From assembly GCA_016800925.1 (NCBI GenBank), contig JABCPU010000067.1, positions 1-64,000 on the forward strand: 64,000 nt of DNA, given 5' to 3'. The notes beneath the pieces were generated by a model. That model ran no database searches. It was given only the letters and a program-made list of their open reading frames with translations, and was not told where the DNA came from. The DNA comes from Suillus spraguei (taxonomy: Eukaryota > Basidiomycota > Agaricomycetes > Boletales > Suillaceae). The position numbers and the translations under genes are program-made. Shown in pieces: positions 5,611 to 40,971 of this stretch (the first letter of the stretch is position 1; each line of letters begins with the position of its first letter).

Positions 5611-5710
5611 CTACAGTGCTACAGCGTGCTACAGCGTGCTACAGCGTGCTACAGCGTGCTACAGCGTGCTACAGCGTGCTACAGCGTGCTACAGCGTGCT
5701 ACAGCGTGCT
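5611..5710. repeat. 10-bp minisatellite, about 10 units
   Basis: Nine perfect copies of ACAGCGTGCT (5621-5710) are preceded by one degenerate unit. The unit is not a multiple of three, so an open frame across it cycles through three phases. It lies downstream of the dehydrogenase gene. Confidence 0.97.
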
Positions 5711-5979
5711 ACCGTAGTAACGACCAACTACCGTATTCAACTTTGCTACCGAAATTTCTGTCGATACGTAGCACTCCGGAGGTGGTTTCAACCCACTGAT
5801 GGAGGGCAGGGTTTTTCACGCAAGTTGTGCAACATTCAGCTGCTGGAATCTTTGCCATTTCTGGTACAGATACCTCTGGAAACGGTTACGTATAGATTGA
5901 AACTGTTATATATCCTCCACACTTATGTATGGGATACAACACGAGATTGCTCGATATCTACACTCGGCCTTTGCACGCC

Positions 5980-12935: not shown

Positions 12936-15641
12936 CTAGACCTGATTCAAAGGTTCATAGCCTCTCCGGCTGGAGCCCATACCCATCCGCATGCTGAGCT
13001 TGCTGAGCAGACTCTTACTCCTGCTGCTATTGGGACCTTCGTGATCGTGCTCAAGTTCGGCTCGTTCCGCTTCCTTCCGTTTCTTTGCTTCCTCGAAACC
13101 TTCCAAGGGCACATCATACACTTGCCATACTCCACGCCAAGCTCCTTGCCCATACTCCAGAAATCCTTGCAGTTCCGTACTGCTCCAAAATCAAATGGAT
13201 TACGCGCATGTGAGGTGAGTCCGCGTGCGGCACGTCCACGCGTGAACCGGTCGAGGCCGAGGAGGTTGAGTAGGAAGGCGGTACATGTTCCGGGTGCGGT
13301 GAGGGTCCCGCAGAAAGTGTGGTTATGGGCCTGTTTGTGAGCACCACCCTCTGCTTCACTGTCGGTGTCGCCATTCTGCTGGTGAGCGCCATGGTGGTGC
13401 CGATGTCCCATCTGGACACCCGCACCTCCACTACCAGCAGCGAGGGTACCGCGACCACCCATGAAGCCGAAACGCCCGAGGTTAGAGACCTCGAACGTTG
13501 TTAGTTGTCTGGTCACTTGCCAGTACTGTGTCACGAGAAGCACAGAAGTCCACGTCAGTTGCAGTGCTGACCACAGCGAGACGCAAAGAAGGAATGCATC
13601 CTTCAAGGCTGGCTCGCAAAGGATTGCGAAGCAGTCAACGGATTCGGGCAATGACATTGACGAGAAATCTGTCATTACTCAAATGAGACTCTTCGGAAAG
13701 ATAATGACCGAGAACATACATTCATAAACAAGGTAGTCAAACAACACGATGTCGATGACTAATGCCGAGACAAAGAGCAAAAACTGCCTATGGTTATTTG
13801 CCCCAACTACAAACTGCATCAGAGTTGGAGTGCCAGTATTCAAGGAACTTAGCTCACCACAGTTCCAGACCCATGGGCAATGGCTATGATAGACGAAGTT
13901 CACTTTTAGCTCTCTAAGATAGGACAAGACATACTGGTCACTTCGCGCTACACATCGATCACAAATACGACAATGTTTTGACCGTAGGGGTTTCTTTGCC
14001 TGTGTAAAATGTTGACATGAGTCTGCACCTTACAATATTGGCACGCACCATGCATTGTATGCAAATGTTTGCCCGTTGAGTCTGCCCTCTGAAGCAAGGT
14101 CTTCGATGATCTGCAGGCTCCGTTATCATGTGCAGATTCATTACGGAACGCAAATAGACTTACTGCCTTCAATTCTCCGTCGTGTGCTGGTCGGGGGCAA
14201 AGACCTGGGTCCAACGTAATGGCACGGAAGAAGTTATACAGACATAGACCAAATATGATTGCGAAGGCAAGGTGGACAAAGGCATGCGATTCTGTCTCTG
14301 GAATGATGTCAGCCCGCGGTTGCAAAAGTATGGCACATGACGTACGCTGTACAAGTCGTGTTATCCAGCAGTAACCAACCCATAGCATCGACCCTGCGAT
14401 AATGCCCGCAAAATATGGGCTTTGATTTACTGTTCCAACGTAGGTGTTCTTATTCAACAGCACTCGGGTTACGATCTGCTTTTCATGAGCTATCGCATAG
14501 TCATGCGAGTCTGTCGTCACTTACATGATGCATGGCAAAAAACTCAGCCATGGCGAGTATAATACCAGTATACCACGGCAGAATAGCAAGCGTGGTAAAA
14601 TGAAATATAGAAACAAGGAGGGTAAAATGAATATAACAATCTTGGTATTGCGCTAAAGCCGGATCAGAAGTTTACAGAGGGGGATCAAAGAGTGAACAGA
14701 CCTCGTTTAATGGTTTCGCTTTGACCACACCATGTTCCGTTAATCCACCCTCTTCCATGGCTCTCTTCCATGCGCCTAGGCTCTTTAATTCAACGGCCAT
14801 ATCTCTTGGCGTACGGTTCTCAAGATCTTTTGCGTGGATATCAGCGCCCATTTCAATGAGGCGCCGGAGGATTACCCGATTGCCCCGGACCACAGCCCAG
14901 TGTAACGGAGTAAGTCCAGTATCGTCTTTCAAGTTAGGATTTGCACCGTGCTTAAGCAGAAGATCTACGGACAATGCATCGCCTTGATACGCAGCCCACA
15001 TCAATGACGTATGGCCTTGTAAGTCACGAGAATCGATGTTCACAGGTTGATGCAGAAGTAAAGGAGCGGCATTACTGACGACGAGTGTGTCACGAGGTGG
15101 AGGGAGTTGTAGCCTTGGGTGTCAGCAATGGTTGGATCAGCATTGTGGGATATGAGCAGTTGCACGATGTAGAGGTATCCATTGCGCGCGGCCCATTGCA
15201 GAGGAGTAGCCTGTAGGTCACCCCCTATTGCGTCTATCTCCGCGCCCTGTTCTATGAGATAGCGGCAGGTTGCAAGCTGGGCATTGATTGCTGCCCAGTG
15301 AAGAGGAGTGCTGCGGACATTCATGAGTGTAACAAAAGGATTTGGGCTAGGCTTACACATTCTGGTCATCCCTGTCTGTGACCTTGCATTTTCCAGACTC
15401 TACGAGTTCACGAATGGCATTGAGATCCCCGCGCTGCGCTGCTGAGATTATTTCTGCCTGTATGACCGTTAGAAATTAGAGCCTGCAGGAGTGAACTAAT
15501 ACTAATTACCACGGGTTGAGCAGACGGTTGAGAGTAAGATATATTAGTCGCGGTAGCTTGCTCGTGAACTACTTGAGTTGTGGGATCGGATTTTTTGGGT
15601 TCGTTCATGTCGTTCGTGCAGTCGTTGGCTGTCGTGGTCAT
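12936..15641 (-). CDS. AKR1-type palmitoyltransferase (ankyrin repeats + DHHC), with frame breaks
   Basis: The gene has many exons, read from 15641 down. The acidic N-terminus starts M-T-T-T-A-N-D-C. Then come [15 protein letters not shown] and about five ankyrin repeats (for example S-T-P-L-H-W-A-A and [10 protein letters not shown]). Two pairs of membrane helices follow, then [15 protein letters not shown], and the Cys-rich catalytic domain [14 protein letters not shown] split by introns before [10 protein letters not shown]. The remainder has two more helices, a His/Gly-rich loop, N-P-F-D-F-G, and the end E-P-L-N-Q-V. This family S-acylates cysteines of Golgi/endocytic proteins. The DHHC catalytic motif is intact. 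Three places need a one-base correction to stay in frame (about 13122, 14064 and 14595), each beside a homopolymer; see findings. The 5' end is duplicated at 21990-22150. Confidence 0.82.
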
Positions 15642-17286
15642 TCGCAGCGAGCTGAATGCCATCCACGTGAGTTGATGACGTGACGACGTGACGTGACTAC
15701 CATCAATCTCAATTCTCAAAGTTCCGCTCAGGTCGCACGCCTTCGGGCAAAACATGCACGGCAGCACTACTTTTGGGAGTGTTTTGGAGGCCTTGTGCAT
15801 GACATGACCGTCCCACTCCAGCGATCGATTGGTCACATATATGAGGCTCTTTGTCACTTATTTTTCTATTATGTTTGCCCTTTTTGCTGCCAGTTCTTTC
15901 ATTATCTTCGGCCAACCATTACATAATGAGGTACGTCATAGTACAACTGGCAGGCTGTTTGAGCTTGAATCATCGTATGATGACTTCCCAACACAATAAT
16001 TTTTTCACTCGACACAGAAGGCATGAATCTAATGATAAGGAGACATCCTAATATTGCGCGGCTACTTGCTTCCACAAATAAAGATTTTGGGACTTCACAC
16101 CGAAACTGCCAGGGGAACGTCACTTATAAGTGCGTACATATGCGCTACTTCAGGCTGCCAGATCATAAACTGTCGCTAAACTGTCGTGGTAGCTACTGGC
16201 TAATATAGGCTTTATCCTTAAGTGCGAAAATATTTAAATTACCCTACGATTTGGATTTGTCCCTCGATTGGCATATGAATGCGCCGCTTCCTTCAAAAGC
16301 ATTTCTCCGCAGCCCGTCGTGACTCTATGCTAATGAGCACCTAGAAAATTGGGCTGATGCCAAAATACAAGCAGAGAAAGATGTTGCCTGGTGGGTGGAT
16401 GTAGAAGCTGGATTGGATGTTGCAGGGGTCGGTGATATGGCTTCGTTCAATGTGTTGGGATGGGGAGGGACAAAAGTTCTCATTTGATATTGTACTAGAT
16501 TACTCTACGTGTAGTTGATATTGCGCTTGTCCTGATCAGTTCTACTTCTCGCGAACCGATGTGCGGGCTATAATGTCATTCACCGTCTCCCTTGGCTTGT
16601 ATGAGTTCATAGTTAGCTGTATCTGGCAGTACCTTATTTACCTGCTCCGATGCTTCCATACAAGAAAACGATGTATAAACAATGGTGTTCATCTGAATTA
16701 GTATGTAGTAGAACTGCGCTCTAACTTTGTAGCATGGTCCCTATACATTCCATTACATGAATTGACTATATTGCACTGATTTCATCGTACACCAATATAT
16801 ACCATGGTCCTTTTTTCACGTGCCAGTGGCGGATGAATTGCAAAATATTGTCCATGCGCAGGCCAGGCTGTCAAAGGACAGTAAGATGATTAGTAGTGGG
16901 ACCGGCGAATTTCAAACTCTATGATATCAGGCGCTGCCTTGGATCCACGACGATCGATTATAGTCAGTTAGCAGAGTTTTCAGTTGCAAAGTCTGCATCT
17001 ACAGCACTGGCGACGTGGTGAGTGATGAAATACCGTATATTACAAGATGGGAAAACATGAGCAAGATATAAAAATACATAGTCCGGTCACCGAACTACAG
17101 TCATGAACGGCTTTTGGAACGTGCAACCGCTCAAGAGCCCGAGGTTGGTAGGAACAACGATAGGTGCAACGTTCAGGACTGCTAGCGGCGGGCTGCGGGT
17201 CAACGGCTCAAGAGTCCGGACTGAAGACGAGAGGATTCCAAAGCGTCACGTCATGGACTAAGTATTATAGAACATGTCAGGTGTGG
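15642..17286. other. intergenic part of duplicated unit 1
   Basis: This spacer between AKR1 and NLR1 has no gene of its own that I can support. It is matched, with many indels, by 22140-23512 (for example CCCTCGATTGGCATATGAA near 16260 and 22820), showing that it belongs to the tandem duplication. Confidence 0.7.
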
Positions 17287-20200
17287 CTACCTTGAGTCGT
17301 TGAAACATACCTTCACAATTTTTTCCCCTTCAGATAAGACGACAAAACAAGAGCGCAGACCCTTCAAACACCACTCCATTTCCAACCAGGGGACGATATG
17401 ACCATTCCAAAAAGCCTGGAATATACAATTGAGTGTGTCATCCCATGGGCTGGGGGCACGCGAGAGATGTACGGTCCAGTTATGACAGGCGTACTTGAGA
17501 GCGTCGCAAGCTGTTCGACTGCGTTCCCGTGCTGCGTTTGCAGAGCTCTCAAAGGCATTCATAGCATGAATGATCTGCCTGTCTGATAGAAGGCTTTCTG
17601 GTATTGCAGAGGTGGAATGATGCTGGTGTCTTAATGCCAAGAAAACCGGAAACATCAAGAAATCTGGCAATGTTTTGATTTGCTGGATGACTTGAGAAGC
17701 TGGGAGTAAAGGCGCGTCACTGGAGATGATATACTCGTTGATTGCGTCGGATGTCTTCAAAAATTCTTCCATTGTTACCCAGACGGAGGCCTCGGGAGTG
17801 GACTGCCACTCTTGACCGCAGGGAGTCTGCAGCCAGTCTCGTCCTGCCTGGGTCTGCAGCCAGTCTTGTCCTGCCTGGGTCTGCAGCCAATCTTGTCCTG
17901 CCTGGGTCTGCATCCAGTCTCGTACACCCTCGGATTGCAGCCAGTCACGTGCTCCCTGAGTCTGCAGCCAGTCTCGTGCTCCCTGGGTCTGCAGCCAGTC
18001 TTGCCCTGCCTGGGTCTGCAGCCAGTCCCATCCTCCCTCGGTCTGCAGCCGGTCTTGTACTCCCCGAGTCTGCAGCCAGTCTCGTCCTTCCTGGGTCTGC
18101 AGCCAGTCTCGTCCTCTCTGGGTCTGCAGCCAGTCTCGTCCTCCCAGTGTCTGCAGCCAGTCGCGTCCTCCCTGGGTCTGCAGCCAATCTTGTCCTCCCT
18201 CTGTCTGCAGCCAGTCTCGTCCTTCCTGTGTCTGCAGCCAGTCTCGTACTCTCTGGGTCTGCAGCCAGTCTCGTACTCTCTGGGTCTGCAGCCAGTCTCG
18301 TCCTCCCAGTGTCTGCAGCCAATCTCGTCCTCCCAGTGTCTGCAGCCAGTCTCGTCCTCCCAGTGTCTGCAGCCAGTCGCGTCCTCCCTGGGTCTGCAGC
18401 CAGTCTCGTCCTCCCTGGGTCTGCAGCCAGTCTCGTCCTCCCTGAGTCTGCAGCCAGTCTCGTCCTCCCTGGGTCTGCAGCCAGTCTCGTCCTCCCTGGG
18501 TCTGCAGCCAGTCCCGTCCTCCCTCTGTCTGCAGCCAGTTCCGTCCTCCCTCTGTCTGCAGCCAGTCTCGTCCTTCCTGTGTCTGCAACCAGTCTCGTAC
18601 TTTCTGGGTCTGCAGCCAGTCCTGTCCTCCCGCGGTCTGCAGCCAGTCTTGTCCTCCCTTGTCTGCAGCCAGTTTTGGCCTCCTTGGGTCTGCAGCCAGT
18701 CTCGTCCTCCCCAGGTCTGCAGCCAGTCTTGTCCCCCATAGGTCTGCAGCCAGTCTCGTCCTCCCTCGGTTTGCACCCAGTCCTGTCCTTCAAATGTCTG
18801 CAGCCAGTCTCGTCCTCCCCTGGTTCGCAGCCAGTCTCGTCCTCCCGGGTCCGCAGCCAGTCTCGTCCGTCCTGGGTATGCAACCAGTCTCGGTCTCCCA
18901 GATCTGCAGCCAGGATCGTCCTTCCATGTCTGCAGCCAGCCCCGTGCTCGCTGGGTCTGCAGCCAGTCTCGTCCTCCCCGTGTCTGCAGCCAGTCTTGTC
19001 CTCCCCATGTCTGCAGCCAGCTTTGTACACCCTCGGACTGCAGCCAGTCTTGTCCTCCCTGGGTCTGCAGCCAGTCTTGTCCTCCCCATGTCAGCAGCCA
19101 CCCCGTGCTCTCTGGGTCTGCAGCCAGTCTTGTCCTCCCTGGGTCTGTAACCAGTCTCGTCCTCCCTGTGTTCGCAGCCAGTCTCGTCCTCCCTCGGTTT
19201 GCAGCCAGTCTTGTCCTACCTGGGTCTGCAGCCAGTCTTGTCCTCCCCATGTCTGCAGCCAGTCCCGTGCTCTCTGGGTCTGCAGCCAGTCTTGTCCTCC
19301 CTGGGTACGCAGCCAATCTCGTCCTCCCTCAGTCTGCAGCCAGCCTTGTCCTCCCTCAGTCCTGCAACCAGTTTCGTGCTCTCTGGGTCTGCAACCAGTC
19401 TTGTCCCCCTGGGTCTGCAGCCAGTCTTGTCCTCCCTGGATCTGCAGCCAGGCACCCCCGTCCATGGTCCCCAGCCAAGATTGTAGATCTGAAGTGCGAC
19501 CTCCTCGAAGCCACAGCAAAGAGATGATAACTGACAGTGGCTCTAAGGGCTGAACAAGGAACGCTAATGAATCTTTTAACTTATGGGGGTCCTCGGCTTG
19601 CATAGCTTTACTTTGCTTCTTCAGTTCTGAGAGTGCATCCAAGAGAGCCGTGCTTTTTTGGAATCGCATTTATCAAGCGGAGAGAGGAACGTGCGAGTAG
19701 GGAGTGAGGGTGAGGCAATGCAATATCGTGTACTTGAGGGAGGCTGCAGTTTGAGCGGTCGAAAACATAGTCGCGAATGGACGAGTGATAGATATTTACG
19801 GGGAGGGTGCTGTCTGTCGGGATATCCATAACAGACCGTAGCTGAATCAGCGTTGTCTGCACATCTCTGCCAAAATTAGGGCCAAGAAGTGTTGATATTT
19901 GCGCTATGGGCAGGGGGTCTGTCAGGGCAGCAACGAGGGACAAGTGCAGGTATGCCCGCTTGGGCTCAGCACAGGTAGAGAGGATAAGGTCGTATAACTT
20001 GTACACCTCTGTTCCTGGTAGCAGCTCGCTCGTCAGCCGGACCATCAGCTGCAACCGATCACGAGGGTCACTGTCTTCATCGTCAACAATAAACTTCATC
20101 ATCGTAGACGCCACGATGAAACGTCTGCCAGCTCGGCTCGCCAGCTTCGCAAGGTCACCCTCTGATGGCTGCGGGAAATCGGGATGGCGGGATTGCAGCC

Positions 20201-21068
20201 CTCTGAATGAATGCTGCAAAAATACATAAATGTCATTGTCGACATCGGCACCGTCTAGCGAGATGACGGTAGCAATGCCCTTCCCAGAAGTTTTCACTGG
20301 TATCTCGCACACCAGCGAGCGCACCTCTTCGTTCTGAAAGGCTTCGCAGATATGGGATTCTGAGCGACTCGTGAGCAGAATGTGGGTTACGGGCAGATCA
20401 GGGTCACGAAGAGCCCGTGCAAGGGAAAGGATTAGATCGGTAAGCTCAGGTTCGGATGTGCATTCATCAAGGGCATCCACAACAAACGTCAAAGGCGGAC
20501 ATCCACGCAATCTTGGTCGAAGGTTCCGGAGGGGTTGGAGAAAGAGAGCCTCCATCTGGTCACAGAGAGGCGCGTCTGGGTCTAGTAGAGCAGGATTGTT
20601 GCGGATGGCTCTGTTCACATGTTGCCGGATGCTTGGAAAATTGGTGGCAAGCTGGTAGGCGAGCGTCGCAAAGAAATACCTAGTCGTGCCACGTGTGGTG
20701 TGTTTGCGCGAGAAAAAGAACGTTCCCGCTAGCCGCTTTTCGACACTTGTTTCTTCAGTCACTTTGAGACTTTTCATCTTCTCAGCTACTGTAAACGCGA
20801 CGGCAGACTTTCCAACGCCAGCCGTGCCATGCAGCCAAATGAGTTGATTCTTCGTTGTATCATCCAGGAATCCGTGGATGTATTTGAGGAGATCCACCCG
20901 GGTTCCTTGCAAACATTTCGGGTGGGGCTGACGCTCAGGAGAGTTATATTGAGCACCCTTGACAGCAACCTGGGATAGTCTCGCCCAAGTTCCTTCAGGA
21001 GCTGTCAAAGAAGTTAGAGAGCATGTAAGAGATGAAGGATGGAGATACTGACATTGATCGTCGCTCAT
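17287..21068 (-). CDS. NLR1: NACHT STAND protein with a nonapeptide-repeat array
   Basis: The start at 21068 (M-S-D-D-Q, intron 1 beginning GTCAGT) joins to E-G-T-W-A-R-L-S-Q. The NACHT module has the pre-P-loop segment C-L-Q-G-T-R, Walker A G-T-A-G-V-G-K-S, Walker B L-T-F-V-V-D-A-L-D-E-C, sensor L-L-T-S-R-S-E, and a winged-helix region through S-S-I-R-D-Y-V. NACHT NTPases are switch-like sensors; in fungi they act in non-self recognition and cell death. After S-W-L-G-T-M-D-G-G comes an array of about 60 nine-residue units (consensus W-L-Q-T-Q-G-G-R-D, 17823-19460). A helical C-terminus follows (F-L-K-T-S-D-A-I-N-E-Y, H-L-S-R-A-P-S-P, W-C-L-K-G-L-R-S-C), stopping at 17287 or splicing at GTATGT just before. 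One extra T at 19654-19659 compared with NLR2, and several indels inside the array, break the frame as given. No WD40 or ANK repeats are present. Confidence 0.8.
17823..19460. repeat. 27-bp coding tandem array, about 60 units
   Basis: A 27-bp unit (on the + strand starting CAGCCAGTCTCGTCCTCCCT and ending GGGTCTG) is repeated without spacer. Variation is concentrated at a few positions (CTCGT/CTTGT, CTCC/CTGC, CTGGG/CTCGG). The unit length is a multiple of three and stop-free in every frame, so several overlapping long open frames appear on both strands. The sense frame is fixed by the unique NLR1 sequence on both sides and reads W-L-Q-T-(Q/L/E)-G-(G/V/A)-(R/Q)-D. Confidence 0.97.
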
Positions 21069-21807
21069 CGATGAAGGTTGTGATATAAGAGATGTGATGA
21101 ACGAACTCAAAGTACTGGCTGGGTTCCAAGGTGCGGTTAAAAATAATTTAGGTGATAGTTATCTGGAGGGACAACGTACGAAAATTTGAATCGAAGCTTT
21201 TAAGACTTCAAGCTTCAGTCGTGGAACGACTCAGCTGTCGAATGTAAAGCGTGGTGAAAATGGAATAGATGAATGGATGTTTCAGCTTATTCTGCTATGG
21301 GAGGCTCGCTGGATGGTGGTGAAATGTGGTTGAAGGAGGAGTAGACGCTTGCAGTTGCAGGAGGACACCATGAGGCTGCTGTGCGGCCATACTAATGTGA
21401 CTGCACAGCCAGACAGAACCACGTCAACACTGCTTAGAGGTGAACTGGAGGTGTGCATCGTTATCATCTGATCCCCTAGGTTTCCGCAGCCAAGTATGAT
21501 CAATTACATTAGTATCAGTGTGACTTCTATTGAATAAATGGGAGACTGAAATGCAGGGGAGTACACTGTGGACAAAGTGCGGATCTTATTGCAACAAGGG
21601 GCAGTCAGGCTAATACATCTTCCGAGCATTCAACTCAAATACTAATACTTCGCCCCAACTTTTAATCACTCAAGTACAAAACATACTAGCGGGCCTCAGT
21701 ACCTATAGCAAACTCATTTTCAAATTTGTTTTCGCAGTCTGATAACTAAAATGATACTCCACAAATCAACGGCGCAGCAACAAACCCTATGCTCGGTTAA
21801 AATGACC
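21069..21807. other. NLR1 upstream region
   Basis: No gene is recognised. The stretch is matched by 25830-26500 upstream of NLR2, so it probably holds the shared promoter of the NLR and, at its right end, that of GPHR. Confidence 0.6.
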
Positions 21808-22150: not shown

Positions 22151-23512
22151 AGAGGTCTCACGCCTACGACCCAAGCTTCGGATCGATGTGTTGAGATCGT
22201 ATTTTGCCTTTGCTTCTCAGATAAAAACTTACTCATAGTCATCTGAATCTACTAGTCAGGTCTCCAGAGGCGTCCGCATTGTACCAACTCACGGTAGGAT
22301 CGCGGTATACTCAATGCAGCGGCACTGCTTTTAGGAGTGTTTTGATGGCCACTCCAGCGATTGATCACATATATAAGGCTGTTTGTCACTTCCGCTGCAG
22401 GTTTTTCTAGTATGTTTATCAATTTTGCTGCTTCTTACTACCTGCTTCATTAATTTCAGTCAAGCCTTAATGAGATATGTCATACAACTGCGGCACTGCT
22501 TGAGCTCGAATCATCGTACGACGACTTCCCAGCACAATAGTTTTTTTTACTTGACACAGAAAGCATGAATCTCGAGATCGCATGCATCACTCATTCAAGG
22601 AGACATTCTTACTATTGCGCGGCTACCTGCCTCAATAAATCCAGGTTTTGGGACTTCACACCGAAAATGTCAGTGGAACATCACCTATGAGGTGCGTACA
22701 ATGTACATGTGCGCTACCTCGGGCTGCTAGATCATAAACACGTCACTGAACTGTTGTGTTAGCTACTGGCTACCATTTGTCCTTAAGCGCAAAAACATTT
22801 AAATTACCCTACGGTTTGTCCCTCGATTGGCATATGAACGCGCCGCTTCCTTAAGCATTTCCGCAGCTTAATGTCGTGACTCGTATATCCATGATGCTGT
22901 TCAGAGGTATCTCTAAGGAACACCTATGAAATTGAGCTAATGCCCAAATGCAAGCAAAAAAGATGTTGCTTGGTGGGTGGATGTCGGACTTGGAGTGGAT
23001 GATGCAAGGGCGGGTAATATGGCTTCGTACATCAATGCATAGCATGCCCCTTTTTTCACGGGGCAGTGACGGATGTATCTCAAAATATTGTCCATGCGCA
23101 GTGCCGAAGGACTGTGAGATGATTAGTAGTGGGACTTAGACTCCATGATATCAGGCGCTGCCTTGGATCTACTTGTTCATGACTATCGATTATAGTCAGT
23201 TGGCAGGGCTTTCAGTCTCACTGGCCACGTGGTGAGTTATAAAATACCGTATATTATAAGATGGGAAAACATGAGCAAGATATAAAAATACATAGTGCAG
23301 TCACCAAACTACAGTGATGAACGACCTCTATGACGGTGCGAACAGGCTTTTTGAATGTGCAACTGCTTCAAGAGCTCGAGGTGCAACGCTCATGAGTGCT
23401 AGCGGTGGGCTGCGGGTCAACGGCTCAAGAGTCCGGACAGAAGATGAGAGAACTACAAGAGTGTCACGTCATGGACTAAATATCATAGAACATAAGGCGA
23501 CGTCAGGTGTGG
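22151..23512. other. intergenic part of duplicated unit 2
   Basis: This is the counterpart of 15700-17286 with many small deletions. No independent gene is seen. Confidence 0.65.
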
Positions 23513-25820
23513 CTAGCTTGAGTCATTGAAACATACCTTCGCAAATTTTTGCCCTTCGGATAAGGCGACAAGACAAGACCGCAAACCCTTCAAACACCAC
23601 TCCATTTCCAGCCAGGGGACGATATGATCATTCCAAAAAGCCCGGAATGTACGATTGAGTGTGTCATCCCGTGAGCTGGGGGCATGCGAGAGATGTACAG
23701 CCCAGTTATGACAGGCGTACTTAAGAGCGTCGCAAGCTGTTCGACTGCGTTCCCGTGCTGCGTTTGCAGAGCTCTTGAAGGCATTCATAGCATGAATTAT
23801 CTCCCTGTCTGATAGAAGAAGGCTTTCTGATATTGCAGAGGTGGAATGATGCTGTCTTAATGTCAGGAAAACCGGAAACATCAAGAAATCTGGCAATGTT
23901 TTGATTTGCTGGATGACTTGAAAAGCTGGCAGTAAAGGCGCGTTGCTGGTAATGATATACTCGTTGATTGCTTCGGATGTCTTCAAGAATTCTTCCATTG
24001 TCACCCAGACGGAGGCCGCAGGAGTGGACTGCCACTCTTGACCACCGGGAGTCTCCAGCCAGTCCCATCCTGCCTGGGTTTGCAGCCAGTCTTGTCCTGC
24101 CTGGATCTGCAGCCAGTCTTGTCCCGCATGGGTCTGCATCCAGTCTCATACACCCTTGGACTGCAGCCAGTCTCGTCCTCCTTGGGTCTGCATCCATGGA
24201 TCTACAGCCAGGCACCCCCGTCCATGGTCCCCAACCAAGATTGTAAATCTGAAGTGCAATCTCCTTGAAGCCACAGTAAAGAGATGACAACTGACAGTGG
24301 CTCTAGCGGCTGAGCAAGGAACGCTAATGAATCTTTTAACTTATGGGGGTCCTCGGCTTGCATAGCTTTACTTTGCTTCTTCAGTTCTGATAACGCATCC
24401 AAGAGAGACGTACTTTTTGGAATCGCATTGATCAAGCGGAGAGAGGAACGTGCGAGTAGGGAGTGAGGTGATGCAATATCGCGTACTTGAGGGAGGCTGC
24501 AGTTTGAGGGGTCGGAAACATAGTCGCGAATGGACGGGTGATAGATATTTACAGGGAGGGTGCTGTCTGTCGGGATATCCATGACAGACCGTAGCTGAAT
24601 CAGCGTTGTCTGCACATCTCTGCCCAAACTAGGGCCAAGAAGTGTTGAGATTTGCGATATGGGCAGGGGGTCCGTCAGGACAGCAACGAGGGACAAGTGC
24701 AGGTGTGCCCGCTTGGGGTCGCCACAGGTAGAGAGGATAAGATCATATAACTTGTACACCTCTGTTCCTGGTAGCATCTCGCTGGTCAAATCGAGCATCA
24801 GCTGCAACCGATCACGAGGATCACTATCTTCATCGTTCACAATAAACCTCATCATCGTAGCTGCCACGATGAAACGTCTGCCAGCTCGGCTCGCCAGCTT
24901 CGCAAGGTCAGTCTCTGATGGCTGCGGGAAATCGGAATGGCGGTATTGCAGCTCTCTGAATGAATGCTGCAAAAATATATAGATGTCATTGTCGACATCG
25001 GCACCGTCTAGCGAGATGACAGTACCCATGCCCTCCCCAGAAGTTTTCACTGGTATCTCGCACACCAGCGGGTGCACCTCTTCGTTCTGAAAGGCTTTGC
25101 AGATATGCGATTCCGAGCGACTCGTGAGCAGAATGTGGGTTATAGGCAGACCGGGGTCACGAAGAGCCCGTGCAAGGGAAAGGATTAGATCGGTAAGCTC
25201 AGGTTCGGATGTGCATTCATCGAGAGCATCGACAACAAACGTCAAAGGCGGACATCCACGCAATCTGGGTCGAAGGTTCCGGAGGGGTTGGAGAAAGAGA
25301 GCCTCCATCTGGTCACAGAGAGGCGTGTCTGGGTCTAGTAGAGCGGAATTGTTGCGGATGGCTCTGTTCACATGTTGCCGGATGTTTGGAAAATTGGTGG
25401 CAAGCTGGTAGGCGAGCGCCGCAAAGAAATATCTAGTCGTGCCACGTGTGGTGTGTTTGCGCGAGAAAAAGAACGTTCCCGCTAGCCGCTTTTCGACACT
25501 TGTTTCTTCAGTCACTTTGAGACTTTTCATCTTCTCAGCTACTGTAAACGCGACGGCAGACTTTCCAACGCCAGCCGTGCCATGCAGCCAAATGAGTTGA
25601 TTCTTCGTTGTATCGTCCAGGAATCCGTGGATGTATTTGAGGAGATCCACCCGAGTTCCTTGCAAACATTTCGGGTGGGGCTGACGCTCAGGGGAGTTAT
25701 ATTGAGCACCCTTGACAGCAACCTGGGACAGTCTCGCCCAAGTTCCTTCAAGAGCTGTTAAAGAGGTTAGAGAGATGCGAGAGATAAGATATGGAAGTAC
25801 TGACATTGATCGTCACTCAT
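23513..25820 (-). pseudogene. NLR2: NACHT STAND paralogue with interrupted short repeat array
   Basis: This is a close paralogue of NLR1 in the tandem duplication. The start at 25820 (M-S-D-D-Q, intron GTCAGT...AACAG) leads into one uninterrupted NACHT frame: Walker A G-T-A-G-V-G-K-S, Walker B V-V-D-A-L-D-E-C, then L-I-N-A-I-P-K-S-T-S-L-L-D-A-L, which is in frame here, unlike in NLR1. After S-W-L-G-T-M-D-G-G-A-W-L a TAG (complement of 24202-24204) ends the frame where NLR1 has CAG. A second stop (TGA for CGA, near 24146) and a frame change follow within about six nonapeptide units (24045-24200). The conserved helical C-terminus (23513-24040) then continues open. As read, the product would be a repeat-less NACHT protein of about 500 residues. 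It could still be expressed as a truncated sensor, or the stops may be real inactivation. Confidence 0.82.
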
Positions 25821-26501
25821 TGATGAAAGTGTGGCTGGATTCCAAGGTGCGGTCAGAAATAATTTAGGCGATAGTTATCTGGAGGGACGACGTACGAAAT
25901 TTAAATCGAATTTTGTAAGACTTCAATCGTGGAACGACCCAGCTGTCGATTTATGGAGAGTGTGAAGCGTGATGAAAATGGAATAGACGGATGGATGTTT
26001 CAATTTATTTTACTCTGGAAGACTGTTGGATGGTGGTGGAATGTGGTTGAAGGACGAGTAGACGCTTGCCGTCCTTGTAGGGGGACACCGTGAGGTTCAA
26101 GTTGCTGTGCGGCCATATCAGTGTGACTGCACAGCCAGACAGAATCCCATCGACACTGCAGACTCAGACTCCCGGAGGTAAACCGTTATCATGTGATCCC
26201 CTAGGTGTGATCTGCATCATGTGATTTCTATTGAATAAATGGGAGACTGGGAGTGCCGCAGCGGACAAAGTACGGATCTTGTTGAGACGAGTAGCATGAT
26301 TTTGTGGGCGGCAGGCTAATACATCTTCCGAGCATTCACCTGCCCCCTAGTCCACCCTGACTTCTAACTTTCACCCAATTGCAAACGTATTACTGGGCCA
26401 TTTTGTGCAGGTTCATTTCTAAGCGACTATACCGCAAAGCAACAACGCAGCAACAAACCCTATGCTCGGGTTAAGGTTCCACGACTTCTCAATCTCCCTC
26501 C
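25821..26501. other. divergent promoter region NLR2 / GPHR
   Basis: The two genes start 681 bp apart on opposite strands. The sequence is shared in part with 21069-21807. No further gene is seen. Confidence 0.6.
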
Positions 26502-28450
26502 ATGACCGCACAACAAGTATTCCTGGTAGTTGCATCAGGGTATATCCCTTGTCTAAATGATTCTGGACATATTTCTCACATATGACTTTAAAGAGGATTT
26601 CTATTCATTAGTTGCCGCATCTTCCTGCAAAAGAAGTTGTACAAGGACCTTCAACAACTCGCCCCGCAAGACACGTTGCCTGGGTCTGCGCAATCAAGTA
26701 GCATACAACCATGGCATTCAACACTCGCGCAGACGTGTTTCTCTCTCTGCTTCTCTGAATGCACTATCCTATTCTGCATGGTTATGTGTCAGGGTTTGGA
26801 TTGGTTGGAACCGAGGTGCGTCGTGGCTCGATTGTGCAAGCTTCTGCAGTGACTGAGTCTGTACGTGCACAACAGGATTCGTCTTCTGAGCTGGCAAACA
26901 ACGCTATTCCTTCTATTGTTCACGATTCTACTACTTGTTCCGATATCGTTCAGCCTCATCTTGACCTACCGTCCTGGTAAGATGCCGTATTCCCTCCTAT
27001 CTACCCAATCGTATCCTAACAATCCCAGATAATCCAGGTTTTATGCAATCTCGTGCATTGCCCATCCGTGTTGCTGTTGCACTAGCACCTGTGGCGCTTT
27101 TCGTATTTGCCCTTTCATATATTCCACTCCCCGCTGAGCTGTTCTTGTACAGCCCGCTCACAGCAGTCACTGCACGGCTGGTCACGTTGGGAACTACGGT
27201 CCTCGGATTACTTTCCGGACTCGGTGCGGTCAGTGGTGCATGGGGCATCTTCAGCCAGTCTCGGTGAGTAGACGCTCGACCAGTCATAACTGCTATTCAA
27301 CTTGCATAGATCAATACCCTCGGCGTCATCGATTGCGTCTGCTGAAAACGCGCTTGAAAGAGTAAAGAACGATCTGCGGGACCGTTCTCGTGACTTGGAT
27401 GACTATGTAAGCTCAAAGGTACTGTGGACCAGCATAATTCGTTGTACTTCGTCTCAGATATTTCAGCCGCAACCAGATGGATCATGGCTGTCACGCATGT
27501 CGTTCAAACGAAATGGACGCAAGTATTGTCTGTCTGTTTCTTCAGAATCTATATTCACATTGTCGATTCTTTGTAAGTAGAAAGCTCGATACAGCAGGAA
27601 GTTATTGGTCTTCAGGCTCTTGGAGAGCAGATGAGCCTTCGCGTTGTTGCTCTCAAACGCAACCGAATTGCAGCGGAGTATGCAGAGTCGTTGACAGGGA
27701 AGACTGTCACGTGGTCATGGGCAGTTTATTGCGTCTGCAGAGTATGTAGTGTAAGTGGACTTCTTCTCTACTGTGAAACTTTCGGTCACGTCCATCCCAG
27801 TCAGCCTTCAATATTCTCTCTCCGACTGTGTCGAACTCGAGTTCGTCCTCCGCATCATATGGGGATATAGTTGCGCATATACTTGCATGGCTATTTTCTT
27901 TCCTCCCCTTGTCTGCGGCAGGAGATGAAGGAGAGTCAAAAATTGACATTCCATCTTTATCAAAACAAATCAGTCTTTGCCTTGTGGGCGTCATCATTTT
28001 ATGTTCTCTCCGCTTGGTGCTTCGTGGCGTCACAAAAGTGAGTTGTCTGTTGAGTATTCGTTTATCTATGTGTTGATTGCATACAGGCATTTCCTGTCAC
28101 ATCACGTAAAACATCAGCATCACTGATGCTGTTGACCCTCGCGCAACTCATGGTATTGGCAAAACTTTCTTTAATGTTACTTGTATGACTAAATGGACAA
28201 TTAGGGCATATATCTCCTGTCGACTCTTGTGCAGCTTCGCACAACCTTTCCACCTACAGTATCCACTGTGATAGGCGACCCTCAAGATCCTCAGGGTCCG
28301 TCTGATGATAGCATGAACTTGTTTGCGACGCTGCCAGAGTACTCGCTATTCGGTGGCTTGTTTGATTGGTCATTCCTGATCGGTGCGGTGGGATGCGCAG
28401 TCGCTCGCTGGGCGAGAAGTTCATTCGAAAGAGACGACTTGGATATGTAG
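26502..28450 (+). CDS. Golgi pH regulator (GPR89/GPHR family) anion channel
   Basis: The spliced gene starts M-T-A-Q-Q-V-F-L-V-V-A-S-G. Exon 2 reads R-I-F-L-Q-K-K-L-Y-K-D-L-Q-Q-L, followed by C-F-S-L-C-F-S-E-C-T-I-L-F-C-M-V-M-C-Q-G and L-E-P-R joined to I-R-L-L-S-W-Q-T-T-L-F-L-L. Next come Y-R-P-D-N-P-G-F, the hallmark helix with L-L-S-G-L-G-A-V-S, and a cytoplasmic coiled-coil loop (A-L-E-R-V-K-N-D-L, then E-V-I-G-L-Q-A-L-G-E-Q-M). The C-terminal domain (I-S-L-C-L-V-G-V-I-I-L, L-L-T-L-A-Q-L-M joined to G-I-Y-L-L-S-T-L) ends F-D-W-S-F-L-I-G-A. About eight or nine transmembrane helices are expected. In animals GPHR is a voltage-dependent anion channel that supports Golgi acidification. About eight introns were traced and all kept frame. 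The gene survives intact at the right edge of the tandem duplication. Confidence 0.9.
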
Positions 28451-29438
28451 AACATTCGCTATACATGTAGTGACCATTATTTGGCCTTGTTAAATTCCGA
28501 AGCTGATGCCTATTCCGGCAAAGTGTGGCACTTGCCTAATCCAGTCCGAAGTGAACAGAAGGTCTGTGCACGAGGAGTTGCATATAAAAGGAGGGCGCGA
28601 ACGAGATGAATCCTTACCACTCTGGCCTTTTGGCTTAGATCAAGTGTAGTATCTGTTCTTAATAGTTTAACCACTATTATGAGGGCACCGCCCTCATTCT
28701 TTGGTTATCAAATTTTTGCCGCCCTTGTCTTCTCGAGCTCTGCTTGCAACTCGAGAGGTGTGATGACCTTGCCACTGCACTATCGGCTTGTGTCGTCGGG
28801 GGATTCTTTGCTTATGGGACCTTGTCTTCTCTTTGCTTTAGCGTCTCTTCATGATCCCTTGGTCATGGATGATCCATAGCAAACAGATGGCATAGATTTC
28901 CTTGGCTTTATGGAATATGCATTGGATGAATGTCATGTAAAATTGTCCTACATTTATATATACGAGGACGCGCCTTTCGCAGGAAATATAATATTACCAG
29001 AGTCTTGTTGTTTGTTCGCCCTTGGAGCGGTGCGGACAGCATAATTATTCAACCAAATTCAAACGGTGTTCCGCGCGTTCAACTTCATTATCAGTGCATT
29101 TATATTAATAGACAAATCATATCTCATGATATTATTCTGCGTGCAAATTGACCTTGAGCAAAATGTACAGATCCTTTTGAATGCAGTCTTGCACTGCGTG
29201 ACGTGGCAGCTATTATTGCGCTAGTGGTGATTGGTAATAATTTGTAGATATGGGAAAGATCAGGTGAGATTCACTTGCTATCCTTGTGTAAATGTGAGCG
29301 GTGCTTGGGGCGGCAAACACCATAGCGCCAAAAGTGTGGCGGATCTTGAATCATGAGCGTTTCAGAACTTACTTGAGCACCCTACTATTAGATCTAAAGA
29401 TCTAAGACTCCTAGTTTCATCTCTAAATTCTGTTGGTC
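28451..29438. other. intergenic region with one doubtful small ORF
   Basis: A TATA-like TATAAAAG (about 28583) precedes a 66-codon open frame at 28679-28879. Its first residues (M-R-A-P-P-S-F-F-G-Y, then hydrophobic A-A-L-V-F-S-S-S-A-C) could form a signal peptide. With no homology or second copy I cannot claim it as a gene. The remainder holds nothing recognisable. Confidence 0.4.
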
Positions 29439-32400
29439 ATGCAGGCTCTCGTCGCCCCTCCTGGCGTGGAACAGATTCCCGATCCCCAACTAGTTGATGC
29501 TGAACTTCGTGATGCCCGTGAGGGTGTGGAAAGTATGAGATTGCTTGGGAAACATATTACTTCTGTGGCATCCGCAGCAAAGGATGGCCCAGAAGATCTC
29601 GATGCCGCAGACAGTTTCCAGATCACATATCTTCAACCACTCAGAATTTTCAATACTGTCGTTGGGAATCTTGCGGATGTATGGGCTACTCTTCTTGGTT
29701 GGAAGCGACCCAATTAAGTTATATAGGTACATCCTTACGCAAAGATGGTGCTGAGTGTGCTGTCTGCTGCATCCAAAGTACGTGTAGTTCTACCCTCATA
29801 TTCAGCAGTTGCTGACTCCATGTAGATTATTCTCGCTCAAACAGAATGTGACCGATCGGTGCAATCTCTTCTCAAGAAATTAGGACAAGTCTACGATTTC
29901 ATGTCACAAGACGACACTCTTTGCCAGATTTCATCCATGCGCACCATCGCTGGACTGATTACCCAGCAGACTCTAGAGTGCGCGCGTTTCATCAGGGACT
30001 ACTCAGAGAAGAAGAGCTTTTGTAAGTTATCGAGCTATTACCCTCCACATATTGTGAATCTTATAAGTTATCGTTATCGCAGGGAAGAAACTCGGGAAAA
30101 TATTATCTCTGAGACGGATGATCTGATTACACGGTACAACAAGGCTTGGATGACCTTATGCAACAATTCCGGGACCAAGCTATTCGCGACATAGCCGATC
30201 TCGTCCGGTTTACGAGTAAGGATTCCGTCGTGCTTCTGACTTTCCATCCACTCATACCCCTTCAGGTGACGAAGTGGGTGACAAACTGGATCTTAGCGAT
30301 ATGGATATACTTTACGCAGCGGGCGCGGGACTAGATCCCACCAAACAATGCTTACCAGGGACGCTCACGGATATTCTCTCCCAGCTCATTGGATGGATCA
30401 CTGACATTGAAGATAGTACTCAGCGTGTGCTATGGCTATCTGGCCCTGCAGGCACAGGCAAATCAACAACCGCTCACACAATCGCTAACTGGTTCGACGA
30501 CTTGGGAGGGCTTGGTTCGTGTTTCTGCTTCGACTGGCACCGGGAAGAAGACAAACGTCATGAAAAGGTCTTCTCCACCATCGCTCGCGACCTCGCTGAA
30601 CGTGACGCGGAGATGAAACGAACGTTGGCAGGCATAGTCGAAAATGCAACTGCACTCGCGAACACCACAAATATCATCCAGCAGTGGTGCAAGCTGTTCA
30701 TGGAACCGCTGATGAAGTCATCTGGGTCGAGTGTGGGGCCTGTCTTGATCATCATTGAAGCATTAGATGAAAGCGGCGGAGTCGAGACACGGCGTAATCT
30801 TCTCCGCATACTTGCAGGTACACTAGAGGGCGAAGGTCTTCCCCAAATCACTGAACTCCCATCCAACTTTCGGATTATCGTCACCTCTCGCCCACTTCGT
30901 GATATCCATGATGCATTTAATGGTGCTCAGCATATCCTACGATTATCCATAGATGACATTCCAGAAGCAGTCTCGCAGGGAGACATCCGTACTTTTGTAT
31001 CTCACGAGCTGAAAAAGCTGCCTGGTCTTGGGGACAAAGAGTTTGGAGACCTCGCCGACAAAGCTGGTGGACTATTCGAGTGGGCGCGTCTTGCATGCAG
31101 ATACATTCAAGAAACCCCCCTTGGCTCATACCCCATTGATCGCTTCAATGCTGTCGTGTCCCACGATCATGGAAAGCGGGAAAACTTGTTGTATGGCATG
31201 TATCGCTTAATTTTAGGAGAAAACATACGGGAGGACAGACACACCACGGAAGTTGGCTATCAGCAAGGGCTAGCAAGGTTTCGTTCCGTGATGGGCCAAA
31301 TACTTGGCTCAGCCGAACCCCTCCCTCTAAATGCCCTGAATGCCATGCAGAGCCATTTTCCAGATGAAAGGGAGCATTACGGTGTGGAAGTTGTGGTAGC
31401 ACACATGGGATCGCTGCTAAGCGGCACCACCAACTCATCTAACCCCATCCGACCCCTTCACGCATCCTTCCGCGAATTCTTGACAAACAAATCATCCAGC
31501 GGAGACTTTTTCATAGAGATGTCGAACTCGCAACGCGATCTTGCTTTTGCGTCACTTCGAGTGATGGAACACGACCTTCGCTTCAATATGTGTGATTTAA
31601 AGTCTTCATACCTCCCCAATAGTCAAGACGCCGGGCTGCCGGATCGAGTCGCAACATGCATTCCCCCACATCTATCCTATTCCTGTCGATTTTGGGCTAT
31701 GCATGTGCGAGCAACGGACTTTGACACGGAGCTCGCAAAGGAAATAGTGTCACTCTTCGACAACGAGCGGCTACTCTTCTGGATCGAGGCACTCGGTCTC
31801 CTCAATGCACTCAGTATGGCAGTTTCCATGCTTCCCCTCATTTCCCGGTGGCTGAAGGTGAGAACAGAGTCATTTGGTTCTATCAGCAAAGTGCTTACAT
31901 GTGAACACAGGAATTGGGCTATAAGCGCATGCAGAGCAATGAGATAAAAAAGAACGTACAGGTCTATGAAAATCTCTCGTCTGCTGTAATAGATGTGCAG
32001 AGATTCGTCAAAGTCTTTGGTGGGATGGTTTTGCACAGCACACCGCATCTGTATGTATCAGCGCTGCATTTTCGCCCATCAAGTCCACAATAGCTGCAAA
32101 GTTTACTGCACATTTTCCGAGCACTCTCGTCTGATACATGGACATCTTGTGAACTGGCTAGTTATTCAGGCGATCAGCAGGCACTCCCGTCAGGTTTTGT
32201 CAGTCTCGTTCTCGCCCGATGGCACTCGCATCGTGTCCGGTTCTATTGACTCCACTGTCCGACTGGGGATGCAGCGATGGGGCTGCCATTGAGTGAGCCC
32301 TTCCAAGGGCACACTCGTTCGGTTTGGTCAGTGTCGTTCTCCCCTGACGGCACTCGCATCGTGTCTGGTTCTTTTGATTCCACTATCCGGCAGTGGGATG

Positions 32401-33368
32401 CAGCGACAGGGCTGCCATTGGGTGAGCCCTTCCGAGGGCACACCGGTTCGATTTGGTCAGTGTCGTTCTCCCCTGACGGCACTCGCATGTGTCTAGTTCT
32501 TTTGATTCCACCGTCCGGCTGTGGGACGCAACGAGCTTATCGTGTCTGGTTCTTTTGATTCCACTGTCCGGCTGTGGGATGCAGCGACGGGGCTGACATT
32601 GGGTGAGCCCTTTCAAGGGCACACCCATTCAGTTTTGTCAGTCTCGTTCTCGCCGATGGCACTCATATCGTGTCTAGTTCTTCGGATTGCACTGTCCGAC
32701 TATGGGATGTAGCGACAGGGCTGCCATTTGGTGAGCCCCAGGCACCTATGCGGTTGAGTCAGTCTCGTTCTCCCCTGATGGCACTCGCATCGTGTCTGGC
32801 TCACGGGATTTCACTGTCTGGTTGTGGGATGCAGCGACGGGGCTGCCATTGTGTGAGCCCTTCCGAGGGCACACTAGTTGGGTTTTGTCAGTCTCGCTCT
32901 CCCCTGATGGCTCATGCATCGCGTCTGGTTCGGAGGATTCCACTATCCGGCTGTGGGATCCAGCGATGGGGCAGTCATTCCAGGAGCACACTGAGATTCA
33001 CTCCTTCCCATCCTCTTTCGATAAAAAATACCCCGCACCTCGCAAACAGGAGACTACCTTGCCAACCAATGCTAGTGACAATCCTCCCATTTGCTTCGCA
33101 TCAAGTTTGGAGTATGCACTGCACAACACTGCTGAGCTACTCAAGGGCACCTCTCATCATGACTTCATTCAAACCCTGTCGTGCTGGAAGATGATGGATG
33201 GATGGTAGGACCTGATCGTCAGCTGCTTTTCTGGGTACCACCCGCTTCCCAAGAACAACCATTTCACACTCCTGGACTGGGACTGTATCTATGGTACCAA
33301 GTGAGCAAGAGATTGATCTGAGTCGCATGGCTCATGGAGAATACTGGTCGAATTGCCAAGATGCGTGA
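29439..33368 (+). CDS. NLR3: NACHT-WD40 STAND protein, WD40 region frame-disrupted
   Basis: Exon 1 is 29439-29678, and short introns separate several further exons. The helical N-terminal domain ([19 protein letters not shown], then [22 protein letters not shown]) is of the kind found on basidiomycete NACHT-WD proteins and resembles 'Goodbye'-type domains. C-L-P-G-T leads into NACHT: Walker A G-P-A-G-T-G-K-S, Walker [12 protein letters not shown], sensor V-T-S-R-P-L, and [11 protein letters not shown]. After an intron at 31859 comes a linker, then about six or seven WD40 units (32180-32980; [15 protein letters not shown]). The tail I-D-L-S-R-M-A-H-G is typical of this family, with a stop near 33366. 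Walker B has E in place of the first acidic D. The WD40 part contains several single-base frame breaks and one truncated unit, so the repeat domain as given is not translatable. Confidence 0.8.
32180..32985. repeat. WD40 coding tandem repeats, about 126-129 bp unit
   Basis: There are six to seven near-identical units (marked by CACTCGCATCGTGTCTGGTT and GGGCTGCCATTG), each encoding one 42-43 residue WD40 repeat. High identity between units is characteristic of fungal NLR recognition repeats. One unit near 32520-32545 is deleted down to a short piece, and another near 32735-32770 is shortened. Confidence 0.9.
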
Positions 33369-39921: not shown

Positions 39922-40142
39922 TATCTGATCGTCGACTATCCAGTCTTCGACCCCGAACCCTGATTGCTTAGATAAGCAGACTAGCGTATGTGTACACTAA
40001 TGTGATTGTTGACTAGGTAACAGCCCTAGCAACCAGAAGACCTAACGGACAGCAAGACTGCATGTGTAGGCACCAAGAACATATACTCAACCCTGACAAC
40101 TTTCTAGAGTCACATAAAGAAATTCACTGACTTCTTTCCATC

Positions 40143-40971
40143 ATGACTACCACTGCCACTGGAAAAGAATTTGAATTCAAGATTGGTCCCCCAACCACAT
40201 TTGACAGAGATTGTGAAAACTCTGCAGAGTTTATCCTATCATGCAATGCCTACTTTAACATCAATGAAAAGCTCTACACCACCAACAAACAGAAGATTAT
40301 CTTCATTTCCTCCTTCATGACCAAAGGAAATGCCAAGTTATGGAAGGAACAGTTCCTCGCTCACGCTCAGTCTGTGGACTCAAGCAGGAGTAAGGCAGGT
40401 TATGGAGATATGAAGCAGTTCATGAAGAGCTTCAATGAAGCCTGTGAGCCAGTAGACTCAAGAGGAACTGCAATGACAAAACTTAGAGATCTGAAACAAG
40501 GAAATGGAGATCTCCAGACATACATCACTGATTTCGAAGCCCTTGCAGCTAAAGCCAAGATAACAGATGACACAATGAAGATCCAGTTCTTCCAGGACAG
40601 CCTGAATCTAGGCATCCTAACCAAGCTATTTGCACCAGGAGATGTCCCTGACATATACTGAAACATTGTATCACAATGTGTTGCCATTGACAATTCCCAC
40701 CAACACCTTAATGTGACAAGGACATGTCATGCTCCACAGAAAAAGAAGAATTATGGAAATGCCCATTACACGCCCCACCACAACCTGAACACCATGATTG
40801 TGGACTGCATTTCAGATGCAGAAAGATCTGAATGCATGAGGAATGGACTATGCTTCAGATACCAAAAGAGTGGGCATCGCTCCAACCATTGCCCTGAAAG
40901 AAGGAAGAACACATTGGTCTGTCAGGCTGAAGTCCAGGACCTTCCTAATGAAGAAGATGAAGATGAAATAG
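40143..40971 (+). pseudogene. chromovirus Gag
   Basis: The ORF starts M-T-T-T-A-T-G-K-E-F-E at 40143 and reads through N-E-K-L-Y-T-T, F-M-T-K-G-N-A-K-L-W-K-E-Q-F and L-R-D-L-K-Q-G-N-G-D-L-Q-T-Y (retrotransposon Gag domain) to a TGA at 40659-40661 where TGG is expected. Beyond it the same protein continues to a zinc knuckle C-F-R-Y-Q-K-S-G-H-R-S-N-H-C whose second Cys is now Tyr. The frame ends at the family B LTR inserted at 40972. Confidence 0.88.

Follow-up and report, generated by a model that had tools for sequence, protein, structure and literature searches.

A tryptophan-anchored nonapeptide array between NACHT and C-terminal domains, a candidate sensor in a receptor-like gene family of Suillus and Rhizopogon

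Fungal NOD-like receptors (NLRs) are described as carrying arrays of WD40, ankyrin (ANK) or tetratricopeptide (TPR) repeats with internal identity and shuffling (PMC4986451, PMC10197012, PMC9815663, PMC12881547). The repeat units are 20–40 residues long (PMC12881547, PMC10197012), highly identical repeats (>85% over ≥100 residues) occur in a minority of NLRs (PMC4986451), and in HET-E the repeats determine recognition specificity (PMC12881547, PMC10197012). Here, we describe a minus-strand gene in a 64,000-nucleotide stretch of Suillus spraguei DNA (assembly GCA_016800925.1, contig JABCPU010000067.1, positions 1 to 64,000; below, the window), in which a NACHT module is followed by about 60 nine-residue units and by a conserved C-terminal helical domain. 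Its likeness to HET-E/HNWD of Podospora lies in the combination of a NACHT ATPase with near-identical repeats whose number varies between alleles (PMC12881547, PMC10197012). The gene differs in having a nine-residue Trp unit in place of WD40, in the position of the array before the C-terminus, and in that no HET-type effector was found. With ANK and TPR NLRs it shares a fast-evolving, internally similar array beside NACHT or NB-ARC (PMC4986451, PMC9815663), whereas the unit has nine residues instead of 20–40, and Pfam gave no WD40, ANK or TPR match in the window gene. In line with the preliminary description of this locus, whose author knew of no account of such a class, the literature searched gave no description of a nonapeptide repeat in fungal NLRs, as far as titles and the beginnings of abstracts tell.

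Tandem Repeats Finder (TRF) reported 60.4 copies of a 27-bp unit with the minus-strand consensus GGRDWLQTQ. With one mismatch allowed, the core TGGCTGCAGAC occurs 60 times in the window against 1.5 expected from shuffling (53 in the main array, six in a second copy of the gene, one elsewhere), and 0 of 100 shuffles of the window gave as many. The array of about 60 W-L-Q-T units claimed at the outset is therefore real. The perfect spacing and continuous coding claimed with it did not hold, as one-base indels put the units of the window copy in three frames. Mean pairwise identity between units is 75.4% over all 31 units of the window array and 85.9% in its best 108-residue stretch, which just reaches the level of >85% over ≥100 residues given in PMC4986451, although the identity measure may differ from the one used there.

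The array lies where it had been placed, between the NACHT module and the conserved C-terminal domain (Table 1). The NACHT open reading frame (ORF) matches PF24883 (NPHP3_N) with 87.7 bits (cut-off 24.8) and PF05729 with 37.9 bits (cut-off 26.7). Its core, at about 20325–20870, has the P-loop GTAGVGKSA, and the gene thus carries the nucleotide-binding domain with P-loop expected of a fungal NLR. A structure search with the model of a homologue, which as a whole-protein query probes chiefly the NACHT part, matched this part to STAND (signal transduction ATPases with numerous domains)/AAA+ ATPases; the likeness to Avs3 and other STAND NTPases (8dgc) concerns the fold of the NACHT part. Pfam found no N-terminal effector domain in the short pre-NACHT stretch of the window ORF, and upstream exons are possible. 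The conserved linker towards the array is in another frame than the NACHT ORF owing to a one-base indel, and the last ∼15 residues of this ORF (about 19608–19655) are out of frame relative to homologues; on an 18-kb contig of the same genome (C28), linker and NACHT module form one ORF. The C-terminal domain has 134 matches in its own genome, fragments counted. Right behind its last K codon stands a putative splice donor, many homologues diverge just past that same K, and, judging from the sequence, a short last exon probably follows.

Table 1. Coordinates of the array gene, its tandem copy and other features of the window
Feature	Position	Strand	Evidence or remark
Nonapeptide array, about 60 units of 27 bp	17825–19451	minus	TRF, core count, unit statistics
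NACHT module ORF, 516 aa stop to stop	19608–21158	minus	Pfam matches, ORF, comparison with C28
Conserved NACHT-array linker (ALLDALSELKKQSKAMQ ... SWLGTMDGGAW)	19452–19669	minus	ORF comparison with C28
Cap and C-terminal helical domain (QSTPEASVWVTMEEF ... WCLKGLRSC ... EKIVK)	17311–17799	minus	own-genome and homologue matches
GTATGT, putative splice donor	17305–17310	minus	window sequence
Antisense ORF over the array, 603 aa	17742–19553	plus	
Tandem second copy of the gene, whole	23513–25812	minus	
Second copy, NACHT ORF	24202–25812	minus	PF24883 86.8 bits, PF05729 39.5 bits
Second copy, short array, 5.4 units	24051–24196	minus	TRF; in-frame stop at 24146–24148
Second copy, C-terminal domain	23537–24025	minus	86% identical to first copy
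Third NACHT/NPHP3_N ORF	30223–31944	plus	
Tandem DNA repeat of ∼128–181 bp	32180–32979	plus	weak WD40 match below cut-off
Ankyrin repeats next to a cysteine-rich stretch	13679–15399	minus	
Gag-like retrotransposon ORF	40134–40658	plus	PF03732
Perfect 10-bp tandem repeat, 9.7 copies (GTGCTACAGC)	5616–5712		

The gene belongs to a large family. A translated search of the S. spraguei genome (86.2 Mb, 1256 contigs) gave at least 205 matches; among the 30 best loci, the matched part is free of stops in 22, and 10 belong to open frames of 900 aa or more. When the array DNA alone was used as the query, the matches listed (about 150 of 379) formed 37 clusters, and each of the 37 is followed on its own strand by the C-terminal domain at a distance of no more than 1 kb. 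Hence, among these matches, the repeat was not seen as a non-coding satellite elsewhere in the genome; the presence of such a satellite was what the preliminary description had named as refuting its reading. In a map of 69 array loci, most of them found by a query that itself contained the C-terminal domain, this domain is downstream in 68 and upstream in none, while NACHT is found within 4 kb upstream in 61, as the proposed tie between repeat and NACHT would have it. At seven loci a NACHT is also present downstream, as expected of genes in tandem. Several loci recur in almost identical form on a second contig, which is what two haplotypes would give.

In other species, a query made of array plus C-terminus from a single intact paralogue retrieved 102 proteins, 98 of which (P0001–P0098) have at least three units; the remaining P0099–P0102 are RTX-like or unnamed and score weakly. 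All array homologues with a named organism come from Suillus or Rhizopogon. The same holds for the named matches of the C-terminal domain alone (63 matches) and, among the best 120 of 247 matches, for those of an array-free model with NACHT and C-terminus. In 104 homologous protein models, some of them incomplete, we counted 3038 units and 2577 spacings of nine residues, with a median of 27 and a maximum of 73 units per protein and none in P0108; the 60 units of the window gene are long, but not unique. The repeat had been described as standing in for WD40, ANK and TPR. This is true of the window gene but not of all relatives, as in P0071, which lacks NACHT, WD40 repeats are joined to the nonapeptide array, and in P0158 (Suillus lakei) they stand on the N-terminal side of a NACHT from this lineage. 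A weak test for a prokaryotic source, with a single degenerate DNA pattern, gave no matches in the genome contigs searched.

Conservation within the unit was estimated from 1448 units in runs at 32 loci, a set that includes haplotype twins. W5 is conserved in 98%, a somewhat too high value because the unit finder prefers units with W, followed by L6 (94%), G2 (87%), T8 (82%), Q7 (73%) and D4 (56%); positions 1, 3, 4 and 9 vary most. The true reading frame is the W-L-Q-T frame: only 16 of 1317 unit windows have stops in it, whereas the two remaining forward frames have 138 and 101 and the reverse frames 179, 106 and 29. The 27-bp unit is mostly stop-free in several frames, an antisense ORF covers the array of the window, and the public models P0091 and P0098 change frame within their arrays. 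The ratio of nonsynonymous to synonymous polymorphism (pN/pS) within arrays, pooled over codons, is 0.72 in the W frame and 0.77–1.03 in the other five. By codon, at 25 loci (eight of 33 were dropped: five haplotype twins, one duplicate, the window copy and the short L032), it is 0.33 (0.23–0.50) for codons 6–8 and 1.54 (1.19–2.10) for codons 1, 3 and 9. A period of 18 residues, or two units, was considered and rejected, as identity at lag 2 is not above that at lag 1 and about equals that at lag 3.

Fast evolution of the repeats, as had been claimed, is borne out by whole-unit differences in array length between near-identical contigs. Nine contig pairs were compared. In five of them the flanks are near identical (98.1–99.9% on the 5' side, 99.1–100% on the 3' side) and the arrays differ by whole units: 63 and 65 units in L045/L047, 65 and 73 in L039/L044, 34 and 43 in L034/L040, 53 and 43 in L033/L041, and 32 and 34 in L035/L042, the latter by the unit finder, from which single units can escape because of one-base indels; by length, this pair differs by 28 bp, that is, one unit and one base. 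L023/L025, L037/L038 and L036/L046 are more distant pairs.

Predicted structures agree with the early suggestion of a regular solenoid, but not on its secondary structure. An AlphaFold2 run on P0036 gave one helix per unit, with a predicted local distance difference test score of 77–87 for residues 531–730 and below 57 for residues 741–800, while another run modelled the array as a beta-solenoid. We lean slightly towards one short helix per unit.

Several other explanations have to be weighed. The window units in three frames, with one-base indels relative to C28, might indicate a pseudogene disrupted by frameshifts. C28 matches the window at 17001–20868 (99.1%) and 22521–29050 (99.3%), and its NACHT part, array and C-terminal domain are joined in a single ORF of 1219 aa, the extreme N-terminus of which differs from the window copy. 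Between the two arrays, both of 60.4 units by TRF, there are no substitutions and seven one-base indels in 1626 aligned bases. In the first stretch outside the array, there are 26 substitutions, mostly 5' of the array near the end of the match, and two one-base indels in 2239 bases; in the second stretch (6.5 kb), one-base indels outnumber substitutions 29 to 21. Indels without substitutions in the array and frequent indels in the second stretch form a pattern of sequencing errors; as the C28 array is open throughout, the frame breaks of the window most likely are assembly errors, and a pseudogene seems improbable. Another possibility is raised by Pfam, since the array scores 102.3 bits against PF00353 (cut-off 23), as would a calcium-binding RTX beta-roll acquired by a fungal receptor. 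The RTX motif is GGxGxDxUx, with G1, G2 and D6 as its defining positions. The array shares with it the nine-residue period and the G-x-D-x-L spacing. Eight permuted or reversed periodic controls reached up to 41 bits, none of them to PF00353, whereas the original unit scored 50.9, and for this reason the likeness is beyond chance periodicity, yet it rests on G-x-D-x-L. When the units are aligned by D-x-L, the RTX glycines 1 and 2 coincide with T8 and with position 9, which is variable; where RTX has its calcium aspartate, only 56% of the 1448 units and 41% of the 3038 cross-species units carry D; and W5, the best-conserved residue, occupies a position left free in RTX. The signature glycines are missing from the array units, and the aspartate is loosely kept. 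Moreover, two of the eight controls pass cut-offs of unrelated families, similarity at lag 2, which two units per turn might bring about, is not raised, one AlphaFold2 run gave helices, and the context is that of an intracellular receptor. RTX membership is weakened by the missing glycines, the loose aspartate and the permuted controls, and we consider an RTX origin unlikely. The only solved relatives by sequence were lipases (E 0.02–0.03). The homologue P0017 is annotated as "Ca2+-binding RTX toxin-like protein"; the label "calcium-binding RTX" on this protein family is probably wrong, and annotators should be warned of it.

The array could also be a tolerated coding minisatellite, expanding through slippage and unequal exchange within a gene family that evolves by birth and death, the repeat itself having no function. 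Strong variation in unit number between near-identical contigs would fit, as would the absence of stops from 86–98% of unit windows in the other frames. The high conservation of W and L across units, even with a finder that favours W, speaks against it, as do stops six- to elevenfold rarer in the W frame than in four of the five others (in the fifth, 29 against 16) and the maintenance of the unit and its location across Suillus and Rhizopogon. Two further observations agree with a minisatellite and at the same time weigh against a sensor: stops within the matched stretch in eight of the 30 best loci, and six public models (P0108, P0112, P0113, P0121, P0127 and P0135) that join NACHT to the C-terminal domain without an array, and that may be splice variants in which the array is intronic, array-free copies or prediction errors. 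The per-codon pN/pS pattern belongs here as well: it is matched by wrong-frame controls, in which single codons reach equally extreme values, so it may reflect uneven mutability, and for the same reason positive selection is not put forward here to prove a sensor. Other points against a sensor are that the codon groups were picked after the data were seen, that the true frame has the lowest pooled pN/pS by only a small margin, that eight of the 69 array loci, two of them near a contig start, lack a NACHT match in the 4 kb upstream, that differences in unit number could partly be due to assembly collapse of repeats, and that the two AlphaFold2 runs contradict each other on helix or strand. Still, we regard a functionless minisatellite as rather improbable.

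Beyond the observed architecture, coding frame, family size, whole-unit differences and, as far as searched, taxonomic spread, we on balance favour an NLR-type (STAND/NACHT) receptor family expanded in Suillineae, with a Trp-anchored nonapeptide solenoid as its fast-changing sensor. The variable coding array, placed between the NACHT/winged-helix module and the C-terminal helical domain, would form a regular solenoid whose core and turn are made by W5, L6, T8 and G2, while positions 9, 1 and 3 would be exposed. The array would bind a ligand or partner, which, by analogy with known NLRs, may free the NACHT ATPase for oligomerisation. Specificity would be set by the number of units and the exposed residues, both of which could change rapidly by recombination among near-identical units, as proposed by comparison with the WD40 repeats of HET-E. 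Because the search for an N-terminal effector domain was negative, the receptor would have to signal through a partner protein. By inference from these systems, the family would work like the known WD40, ANK and TPR receptors, with a different repeat.

Some other features of the window should be mentioned. In the tandem second copy of the NACHT gene, the array is short and contains a stop; since its near-identical counterpart on C28 has a stop too, this copy looks truly degenerate. From about position 3872 of L031 onward, C28 diverges from the window between 20868 and 22521, within the 5' region of the NACHT gene. The interval separating the two matches is about 6.3 kb longer in C28 than in the window, and therefore one haplotype has an insertion or rearrangement there. 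The third NACHT ORF, together with the tandem DNA repeat behind it, probably represents a NACHT-WD40 receptor of the ordinary kind, whose repeats are highly similar. The ankyrin repeats adjoin the array gene, and the cysteine-rich stretch next to them may represent a DHHC palmitoyltransferase, whose motif it resembles. The window also holds a Gag-like ORF and a perfect 10-bp repeat.

More tentatively, the sensor may be a modular solenoid with a nine-residue unit of one short helix or strand, in which Trp and Leu form a near-invariant core and two or three positions are free. If so, single units could be added, dropped or swapped to retune recognition, and the family would represent a different class of eukaryotic NLR sensor, changing in much finer steps than WD40, ANK, TPR or leucine-rich repeats. 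A nine-residue unit in a large family of pine-associated mushrooms would widen the range of repeats usable as an immune or self/non-self sensor and, as unit-level differences are visible within one genome, would provide a simple system for following evolution repeat by repeat.
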